Source: Halicephalobus mephisto (lineage: Eukaryota; Nematoda; Chromadorea; Rhabditida; Panagrolaimidae). Taken from it: DNA of 64,000 nt. The stretch covers positions 124,001-188,000 of the forward strand of contig SWDT01000248.1 of assembly GCA_009193035.1 (NCBI GenBank), given 5' to 3'. The notes under the pieces were generated by a model. The model had not been told where the DNA came from. It was given only the letters and a program-made list of their open reading frames with translations, and made no database searches. Shown here in pieces: positions 54,312 through 58,005 of this stretch (position 1 is its first letter; each line of letters begins with the position of its first letter). Made by a program: the position numbers and the translations under genes.

Positions 54312-55637
54312 TTAAAGAGCGAGTAAGCCTTCGTCATACTGGTAATTGGGATATTCTAAGAAATCCGTAGGGACATTCATCCCATCGAAACAACTGGAGT
54401 CGATACTTGTGGATTCATACGGGTAGGTAGAATCCATCAAAGAATCACATGTGTTCTCGGAGGTGCATTGAGTATAACTCGGACTCGGGAGCTGAAAATA
54501 AAATTGTATAAAATTATGAATTATACGAAATCAGTAAAATTAAATAAAATCAAATTGGAAATTATGAATTCAAAGTAGAAATTACATAAAACCAGTAAAA
54601 ATTAAATGAAATTAAGTTAGAAATTGCATAATTTCGAATCAGATCTTATGAAAAACCAACTGTAAAATTAAATAAAATAAAAAAACTAACCTCGCAAGTG
54701 TTTAATTTCGTATACTCCGTTTCTGTTTGAACTTTTTCAAAAGAGTTATAATCCTGATCAATTGTCTCCGTCTCAATGCCCTGGAAGTCGGGGAAGCCGT
54801 CTTCCAGGAGGTCGTTGCAGAGTTCGTCGAGATCGATGCCATCTGTGACTTCGGCGAGTTCTTTAATGAGCATTTGCTGGGACGAGAACTCGGGATCAAT
54901 GTGCTGATTACGGTCAGAAGGGTCAACAAGATATGCCGATGTTTCATCACTTTCGTAGAAGACTTGTTTGGCTCCACATCCGGCAACCATATCTGTTGAT
55001 CCTCGGATACCCGTTCCCACGGCAGGGGTCCGCAAATGGATGCTGCTGATCCAATAGTATCCTGAGGATCTCCAGATACAGTAACGTTAGGCGAAGGCAA
55101 ACTGCTTCCATTTCTGGCGATGGTAACATTGGCTTCTGAGAGCTTCTGTTCCAAATCCGCAACACGTCCACGAAGGTATCTGGTCTCCGCAATGAGCTGC
55201 TTAACGGCATCTTCCAATTTCTCGCTTCTGGCCTTCTTGCGATCACGGGCAGTCTGAGCCGCGACTCTGTTCATCATCATCCTTCGTTGCTGGCGTTCTT
55301 CCGGGGTCAAGTGATTCAGATTCTGACGTTTCCTAGTAGCTGTAGGTGGACGAGAAACGTCATCTGAAAGAAGTTCCGTAATGGAGCTCAAATCGACGGA
55401 TTCAGCGATGCCAGTCGGCCGTTTGGCAGGTTTCGGCGCCACAAGAACGTTATTCGTCTGACGTTTCCTAGAAACCGGCATCACAGCAGGAACAATCCGT
55501 GGTTGACAAGAGGTAGAAGTCGGAATTGCAATTCTCCGTTGTGTATTCGGAACTACTGGTGGATGTCTGAGTGGACGTGGAGCCCTCGTCGCGGTCTTGT
55601 TCGGCTGAGCTGGGAGAATAACGATATTAGGTGTCAT
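54312..55637 (-). CDS. xbp-1: bZIP transcription factor XBP-1 of the unfolded protein response
   Basis: From ATG 55637 the unspliced frame runs to 54702 (311 residues). It contains the XBP-1 basic region (LNHLTPEERQQRR, NRVAAQTARDRKKARSEKLE) and a leucine zipper. A 23-base IRE-1 intron at 55045-55023 shifts the frame. The spliced form continues through 54691, then a normal exon 54491-54312, giving 367 residues with an acidic, Tyr/Ser-rich activation domain (LIKELAEVTDGIDLDELCND, YPNYQYDEGLLAL). An acceptor lies about 15 bases upstream of the ATG. In the known pathway, ER stress activates IRE-1, which excises the intron so that XBP-1s induces chaperone and ERAD genes. The gene lies downstream of, and in the same orientation as, the DnaJ gene, but has its own upstream sequence with a UPRE. 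Confidence 0.95.
55016..55052 (-). promoter_or_regulatory. Paired IRE-1 cleavage hairpins bounding the 23-base xbp-1 intron
   Basis: On the minus strand the 5' hairpin is GGAT-CAGCAGC-ATCC (55052-55038) and the 3' hairpin is CCC-CTGCCGT-GGG (55028-55016). Both have 7-base loops of the form CNG|CNGN. Cutting after the third loop base removes exactly 23 bases (55045-55023) and moves the bZIP frame into the long downstream frame. Confidence 0.9.
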
Positions 55638-55781: not shown

Positions 55782-56371
55782 CTATATATAAATTTATATG
55801 TAAAAAATCAATTACAAGTGAATAATATTTAAATAAAAACGAATTTTATATATGGAAATTTTAGGTAAAAATCAATTAAAAACACGAAATTTTTGGAAAC
55901 TGATTAATTACAAATAAAAAAAATTTCACCCGAAAATCAACAATAAAAAAAGAAAATTTAGGTAAAAAACACTTACATATGGAAGAAATTTAGACAAAAA
56001 TTAATAAAATACTTTTGAAATTTAGTTTAAAATAATTTTTATAAAAAATCAATAGAAATAAACTGACAGAGAAACCAATTTCGAAAGAGGCGCAATGACT
56101 GGAAGACAGAGCGAGTCGGTTGTCTCTCTAGTCCACGTCAGCATTGTCGAAATTTGCTGACGACTCCTTCGCTCATTGGCTGCACCCCTTAGGGCGGAGT
56201 TTTCTGGAAAATTCTCCGATGACGAATCAAAGTAGGATCGATTTTATTTATAATCAGCTGTTCTTTAAATAGAAAAATTAATCCAAGTGAAAGTGGCTTT
56301 GCAAAACCCCATATGACTAGCTGTCCATCAACCACAGCAAGTCTAAATTAAGAAATCAAGGAAAAAATACA
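55782..56371. promoter_or_regulatory. xbp-1 upstream region with a UPRE
   Basis: The segment between the DnaJ gene stop and xbp-1. It contains CCACGTCA at 56133-56140 (reverse complement TGACGTGG), the XBP1/ATF6 UPRE core, in a locally G+C-richer stretch, plus CATTGG nearby at about 56175. Distance from UPRE to ATG is about 0.5 kb. Confidence 0.65.
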
Positions 56372-58005
56372 TTAACCGAAGAATTTCCCGAAGAATCCGC
56401 TAGATTTGCCTTGTGTAGCGAGTTCAGACGGAGCAGGACCGAAAGCGGCTTCAGATTCCTTCACCAGCTCCTCGTAGACAGTGTCCCTCAGTTTCAGCAT
56501 CTCCGTAACTTCCGTTTCTTCCTTTTTCAGGCGTTCTTTAGCAGCTTCCCAGCGTTTCTTGAGATCCATATACTCCTGTTGGAAAGTAGACATGACTTCC
56601 TTCTTCTTCAGCAACTCCGGTTCCAAGCTCGTGATCTTAGTCACAGTTTCGGTGCTGTGGGGAGCAATTGGGAGGAAAGAAATTTTAAATTTTCCTTCTT
56701 GAAGAAAGTTATCACCATAAACAGCAACCAAATGTTTTCTTTCTTCCAGAGTATGACCTCCTAAAAAAGAAAATTCATACACAAATTGTCAAATCTCACA
56801 TAAATTACGGCAATTCTATATATAAATCACGTAAAGGGTTCATATATGGATATATAGAAATCTATATATGGATTATATGGAAATTCATATATGAGTTTTT
56901 TAGGGATTTATAGATTGTACAAAAATTCATATATGAGTTTTTTAAGGATTTATAGATTGTACAGAAATTCATATATGAATTCTTTAGGGATTTATAGATT
57001 GTACAGAAATTCATATATGAATTCTTTAAGAATCTATATATGGATATATGAGGACCTATACATGAATTACAAAAACCCACGTCAATTTTGTAAAAATTCA
57101 TGTATTAATTTTATATGAAACCAACCTTGGGCTTGAAGGGCATCTAGGAAGTGGAAACTAATGGGAGTGTCGCGGTCCTCCATGTAGAACTTCATGGGTA
57201 TGAATTCGCTCAGATTGTTTTTAGTAAATGGAACGAAAAATAAATCCGCTACAGTATGAGACTTCTTTTTTTGACTTTCTTCCATCATTCTGACTCCGCC
57301 ATCTCGATCGAACAAAACTAATTTAAACTTACTGCTAGAACTGGATTTGCAACGGATGATGACTCCATTTTCTTGGTATTCTGATTTCATGTCTATGACG
57401 AAAAATTTGGCATCTTGGGTCTTGACGGTTTCGCTTATCGCGATCGCCGGTTGAAGAACGGGGACATTTGCAAATTGACGTTCTGTGTGTTCTCGGGCAT
57501 TCGACAGGACCTTCGGGGAGACCGTGGTCGGGATGGGGACGCCGAGTTTGCTGAACATGGCCCCGAAGAAACGGCCTGAAATTTCGTCGTTGATATATGA
57601 AAATAATAAAACAATGTCATCAAAGCGATAAATAGTAATTTAATTTAAATAAAATGCACTTACCGACAGATCCGAGCTCAGATATGTCGATTCCGTCGAA
57701 ATCAGAAAGCGAAGTCCCGGGTCCGCTGACGTCATACTGACGACGTTTATTCGGATCAGAAAGGACACTATAAGCAATCGAGATGCGTTTGAAGGTTTCC
57801 TGAGCTGAAATATTACGAAATAAAAAATAAAAACAAAAATCACTTAACCTTGGACGTCGCCCGGGTTCCGGTCAGGGTGGTACTTCAGGGCCAGTTTCCG
57901 ATAAGCGTTTTTTATCTCCGACTCCGTGGCATTCCGAGATACTCCGAGAATCTCGTAAAAATCCTTCACATTATCAGAAATTCCCGGCTTATTGTCGTCA
58001 GACAT
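56372..58005 (-). CDS. J-domain co-chaperone of the ARG1 type
   Basis: Exons 58005-57849, 57804-57664, 57575-57126 and 56760-56372 give 378 residues. An N-terminal J domain has [20 protein letters not shown] and the HPD at residues 43-45, needed to stimulate Hsp70 ATPase. After it comes the conserved block [20 protein letters not shown], a signature shared with plant ARG1 proteins, then a large domain ending [14 protein letters not shown] and a coiled coil rich in Lys/Glu ([20 protein letters not shown]). The C-terminus [10 protein letters not shown] is short and aromatic. It begins 507 bases from uso-1 in divergent orientation, so the two may share a promoter. Intron 56761-57125 contains a 39-base tandem repeat. 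Confidence 0.9.
56880..57030. repeat. Intronic tandem repeat, about 39-base unit
   Basis: Three to four copies of ATTCATATATGA-TTTTTTAGGGATTTATAGATTG-TACA lie in the last DnaJ-gene intron. Confidence 0.85.

Follow-up and report, generated by a model that had tools for sequence, protein, structure and literature searches.

The minus strand of the window (the whole 64-kb stretch of DNA that was analysed) carries a complete xbp-1 gene model for Halicephalobus mephisto, a deep-subsurface, heat-tolerant nematode. Upstream of a pair of hairpins, 197 codons are common to a spliced and an unspliced product and include an XBP1-type bZIP domain; several of the nearest relatives of this protein, among the matches listed, carry the name X-box-binding protein 1. 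Downstream of the bZIP domain lies a match to the Rfam family RF04247, the non-canonical Hac1/Xbp1 intron, followed by a stretch that is open in two frames. The features are the following:

55046..55637 (-): coding exon of xbp-1 common to both products, with the ATG at 55637
~55304-55140 (-): bZIP domain of xbp-1, matched by Pfam PF00170 and PF07716 (bZIP_1 and bZIP_2), both over the cut-off
54998..55070 (-): whole RF04247 element, with an outer 7-bp stem GATCCTC/GAGGATC and an inner closing stem around both hairpins
55037..55053 (-): 5' splice-site hairpin, a 5-bp stem TGGAT/ATCCA with the loop CAGCAGC at 55048-55042
between 55046 and 55045 (-): predicted 5' cut, after loop position 3
55023..55045 (-): putative 23-nt IRE-1 intron, sequence CAGCATCCATTTGCGGACCCCTG, inside the RF04247 match
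55016..55028 (-): 3' splice-site hairpin, a 3-bp stem CCC/GGG with the loop CTGCCGT at 55025-55019
between 55023 and 55022 (-): predicted 3' cut, after loop position 3
54691..55022 (-): dual-coding stretch, where the acidic tail of XBP-1s begins in one frame and the XBP-1u tail is encoded in the other
54702..54704 (-): stop codon of XBP-1u in the unspliced frame; the exon ends 11 nt further on
54492..54690 (-): predicted ordinary spliceosomal intron of 199 nt, GTTAGT...TTTTCAG; P0001, a relative described below, aligns across its junction
54312..54491 (-): last coding exon of XBP-1s including the stop codon, from frame reading and alignment to the relative

The first-pass annotation, made from the sequence letters, had two 7-nt loops, CAGCAGC and CTGCCGT, bounding exactly 23 nt, and the segment does lie where it was placed, at 55045-55023 (-). 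With the 23 nt retained, the bZIP frame ends at 54704-54702, the stop already named in that annotation, and the resulting product, XBP-1u, is 311 aa long with a tail of net charge +16 over 114 residues. With the 23 nt removed and the ordinary intron skipped, the frame switches, joins a normal exon and ends at 54312, giving XBP-1s of 367 aa; its new tail of 170 aa has a net charge of -30, and the acidic C-terminus claimed for this frame is thereby borne out. The length once given to the second frame, 129 codons, needs correcting, as the stretch from the junction to the first stop with the ordinary intron left in comprises 125 codons (322 aa less the 197 shared). The openness of the unspliced frame is not significant in itself, the frame being open in 5453 and 4585 of 20000 codon shuffles.

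A scan of both strands of the 64-kb window counts 50 heptaloops of the form CNGNNGN with stems of at least 3 pairs (30 on the plus and 20 on the minus strand). A hairpin pair spaced 14-60 nt apart, one of whose stems has 4 or more pairs, occurs once, and this is the xbp-1 pair; with the stricter CNGCAGN, the same search of both strands returns no such pair. The match to RF04247 is full-length, scoring 42.1 bits (E 2e-6) against a gathering cut-off of 41, and is the sole match reported in the 59.9-Mb genome at E up to 10, with 73 of the 1288 first-look candidates scored. Among unrelated control genomes, seven of 14 have RF04247 matches below the cut-off (E up to 10) and none has one above it. 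The margin of the H. mephisto match over the cut-off is narrow, 1.1 bits, and the protein evidence therefore weighs more. Two further Rfam matches of low score fell short of their gathering cut-offs and were taken as chance.

In the predicted ensemble, the pairs of the outer stem have probabilities of 0.97-1.0. When the 73-nt core is folded in isolation, the closing-pair probability is 0.70 for the 5' hairpin and 0.26 for the 3' hairpin, and the minimum-energy fold is one without the 3' hairpin and with an extra pair inside the 5' loop; the energy of this fold is -28.9 kcal/mol versus -27.7 kcal/mol with both loops forced, a cost of 1.2 kcal/mol. The 3' hairpin gains nothing from a change in temperature, its probability staying at 0.23-0.26 across 25-45 C, and the probability of the 5' hairpin drops from 0.85 to 0.55 from 25 to 45 C. 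The 3' hairpin is predicted to be a minority structure because its stem has only three pairs; according to two studies, a stem of at least four pairs is asked for under each loop (PMC8416019) and about five stem pairs have been described (PMC3149027). The H. mephisto element shares both heptaloops and the closing stems with RF04247 but differs from the family consensus in having C in the 3' loop where the model has A, and in its shorter 3' stem, the outer pairs of which are flagged as non-standard in the Rfam alignment. By the folding model, the case is weakest at the 3' hairpin, though the energetic cost is small, and the binding of IRE1 may help this hairpin to form.

The protein comparison is based on 170 sequences, consisting of the H. 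mephisto protein and 169 retrieved ones and including the best 120 of 1201 hits from 7987 scored candidates; the set is redundant in species and partly made up of unnamed metagenomes, and its counts represent non-independent events. The closest named relative among the matches listed is a Halicephalobus protein. P0001 (Halicephalobus sp. NKZ332) aligns to the spliced product with 260/368 identities, reaching the last residue of both, and the tails of XBP-1s and P0001 are identical at 118 of 169 positions. The unspliced tail, for its part, is identical to P0002 at 88 of 115 positions, to near the end of the unspliced frame, and the shared part at 153 of 196. Each of the two products thus appears, as far as gene predictions tell, to be recorded in relatives.

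At the junction itself, six residues are absent in P0001 and five in P0003, the simplest explanation being that their gene models place a longer conventional intron across the 23 nt. That these two proteins reach the second frame in such a manner suggests longer-intron models and is what one might expect if a conventional spliceosomal intron joined the two frames and the hairpins were incidental. We find this explanation highly improbable: the 23-nt segment starts with CAG and ends with CTG, not GT..AG, the hairpin pair is unique in the window and matches RF04247, and codons for both loops at the 23-nt spacing are found in 104 of the 170 sequences, among the matches listed. Less probable still is an assembly error or a decayed gene, a 23-nt indel having broken one long frame; two overlapping frames with neither spanning the whole gene could be read so, but relatives extend along the length of both frames and the unspliced arrangement recurs in many of the retrieved proteins, among the matches listed.

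Turning to the processing machinery, a profile search finds one IRE1-type RNase domain in the genome (E 5.5e-31), and the IRE1 ORF aligns to solved IRE1 kinase-RNase structures from the last part of the kinase through the RNase domain (E 1.4e-74), with the RNKKHHY stretch unchanged. RtcB is present in two neighbouring pieces that together match positions 13-426 of the 426 in the profile, and archease is found once in the genome. The RNase domain lies at L009 (G000:C122:290356-293676), in the form of partial exons. Programmed ribosomal frameshifting instead of RNA cleavage could also lead translation to the second frame, and the protein comparison strictly demands only a frame change, but with an RNA element that matches the IRE1 substrate family and with both IRE1 and RtcB present, its chances are minute.

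We consider the 23-nt segment to be, with a probability of roughly 0.96, the IRE-1-excised regulatory intron of H. mephisto xbp-1, and the gene to hold an apparently intact switch of an already known family. A complete IRE-1 intron of xbp-1 had been proposed in the first-pass annotation, and the proposal is well supported by what is established here: the anatomy of the locus, two open frames with relatives in both, the match to the Rfam family and a genome that encodes the enzymes. By analogy with the family, the switch would be controlled by stress, proceed by cleavage and ligation, and involve targeting to the ER and activation. In unstressed cells, the transcript would be read as XBP-1u, consisting of the bZIP domain and a basic tail with a hydrophobic run, and the latter may draw the transcript to the ER membrane. 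When ER stress sets in, IRE-1 would cut after the third base of each heptaloop and release the 23-nt segment, the RtcB ligase would join the ends, and reading would pass to the second frame and its acidic tail, producing the active transcription factor XBP-1s. The 23-nt deletion would be countable directly in RNA-seq, providing a read-out of IRE-1 activity.

Among the known systems, the element resembles that of C. elegans xbp-1, likewise a nematode gene, from which IRE-1 removes 23 nt (PMC2553261); the comparison made here is one of gene and segment length. With vertebrate XBP1, it shares the two heptaloops and the frame switch, and its unspliced tail holds a candidate counterpart of the vertebrate hydrophobic segment (PMC9217131 and PMC8674358), whereas the vertebrate intron is 26 nt long and that of H. 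mephisto 23 nt. For H. mephisto, the genome paper describes the ER stress gene ARMET as induced 44-fold by heat and gives IRE1-dependent decay as one possible reading of the heat data (PMC6872716); "XBP" and "IRE-1" were not found in a search of its main text.

The 3' loop, CTGCCGT, had been interpreted as a change that is tolerated although it affects a key position of the loop, and as one belonging to this species, and neither part of the interpretation stands. Across evolution, loop positions 1, 3 and 6 (CNGNNGN) are reported to be nearly invariant (PMC9217131), and all three are kept in H. mephisto. The motif used in human IRE1 work is CNGCAGN (PMC8674358), and single-base mutagenesis with yeast Ire1 is reported to give CNG|(C/A)NGN, so that position 5 is free (PMC8104961); CTGCCGT fits both this pattern and CNGNNGN. 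The unspliced frame reads the 3' loop as codons CNG-NNG-N, and the amino acids of the relatives therefore show position 5, a Q in a relative indicating A and a P indicating C. The decoding presupposes L/Q/P/R in the first and Q/P/R/L in the second codon of the 3' loop, the bases being deduced from amino acids, and it leaves out 66 of the 170 sequences: 12 have the 5' pattern without its 3' partner and 54 have neither, and P0010 (Panagrellus) is not decodable by the peptide pattern. A first decoder, allowing several intron lengths, was dropped because it picked false 5' sites, such as SAEN within the zipper and an incorrect SAE in vertebrate entries.

Among the 104 sequences that fit the 23-nt spacing in the matches listed, 57 have Q (A) and 47 have P (C); an L-P-W reading, compatible with CTGCCGT, is found in 12 of the sequences listed, H. 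mephisto included. Of the 47 nematode-named entries listed, 12 are not decodable and 35 are, with A at position 5 in 23 (Q) and C in 12 (P). The named P-type entries include Haemonchus, Ostertagia, Ancylostoma, Nippostrongylus, Angiostrongylus, Ditylenchus and Panagrolaimus superbus, and the named Q-type entries Ascaris, Toxocara, filarial worms, Pristionchus and Mesorhabditis. Because P occurs at these frequencies both among the decoded sequences and among the named nematodes, C at loop position 5 is, judging by the decoded residues, widespread among the related sequences examined, and a loop consensus of CNGCAGN is too narrow.

The tail of XBP-1u contains a further feature:

54888..54932 (-): HR2-like hydrophobic run ILLTLLTVISTLIPS, u-frame residues 236-250, with a Kyte-Doolittle value of 2.09 over 15 residues

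The run occupies a position like that of HR2, the segment that brings the vertebrate XBP1u mRNA to the ER (PMC9217131), and in Drosophila, both HR2 and a C-terminal pausing region are reported as conserved, with the suggestion that this applies across metazoans (PMC4138184). A hydrophobic run similar to ILLTLLTVISTLIPS is found in P0002. In the H. mephisto gene alone, the support for the run is modest because synonymous-codon shuffles also reach the same hydrophobicity: of 20000 shuffles, 267 or 2310 attained the 15-residue value and 1145 or 6216 the value over 19 residues, according to the null used. A nematode-type signature, S/P/T/A-A-x-x-I, is carried by 100 of the sequences listed, a class that includes H. 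mephisto and whose unnamed members are not proven nematodes. In 77 of these 100, a 15-residue run with a Kyte-Doolittle value of at least 1.5 is located within 60 residues after the splice site; the 23 without it include several gene models crossing into the spliced frame. All six Panagrolaimus-like entries, P0004-P0009, are below the threshold, and the run is present in 25 of the 35 named nematodes among the matches listed.

Vertebrate XBP1 combines HR2 with a C-terminal pausing peptide, whereas H. mephisto lacks the tryptophan pausing motif in both of its forms, WWG..Q.SW.P and the vertebrate-like WG one, as do all 100 nematode-type sequences listed; within the full set of matches listed, the motif occurs in 26 of 170 sequences with a strict pattern and in 29 of 170 with a looser one that covers the vertebrate form. 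We also considered the basic C-terminus as a substitute for the pausing peptide and rejected it: XBP-1u has a basic C-terminus because the opposite frame is acidic, and the charge of the last 25 residues, +10, compares with means of 8.8 and 7.8 in shuffles that keep the spliced protein. It is conceivable, though we would bet against it, that nematode XBP-1u keeps the hydrophobic ER-targeting segment, encoded in the frame opposite to that of the acidic activation tail, and has lost or never had the C-terminal pausing peptide, its mRNA reaching IRE-1 without a pause. Such a pause-free route to IRE-1 could perhaps go through plain SRP recognition; alternatively, nematode XBP-1u possibly contains a different pausing sequence. 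Our search of open-licence papers turned up none on HR2 or a pausing motif in nematode XBP-1u, and such a paper may exist in print. What would be new biology here, and is only suggested by these patterns, is that nematodes target this mRNA to the ER without the known pausing peptide.

Regarding the start of the gene, the annotated start of P0001, MLTCAREKEMDAKKM, lies further upstream, and a similar ATGCTGACGTGG stretch is found in the window at 56144 (-). An acceptor-like TTTTTAG precedes TGGACGCGAAGCAAATG (56144-55637, -), and upstream of 55637 there may be a trans-splice site or the real first exon. The window also contains two matches to TGACGTGG, which we take to be the core of the UPRE bound by XBP1:

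56133..56140 (-): TGACGTGG site ~500 nt upstream of the xbp-1 ATG, a weak candidate for a self-regulation site
57077-57084 (-): second TGACGTGG site, from the motif scan of the window

The two matches in the window compare with an expectation of 0.36, and two or more were seen in 3 of 100 shuffles; the site upstream of xbp-1 would allow self-induction, and we regard the case for it as weak. A neighbouring gene on the same strand, seen in the interval 57600-56372 (-), has its stop at 56372, and its apparent intron, ~57080-56800, contains short near-repeats.
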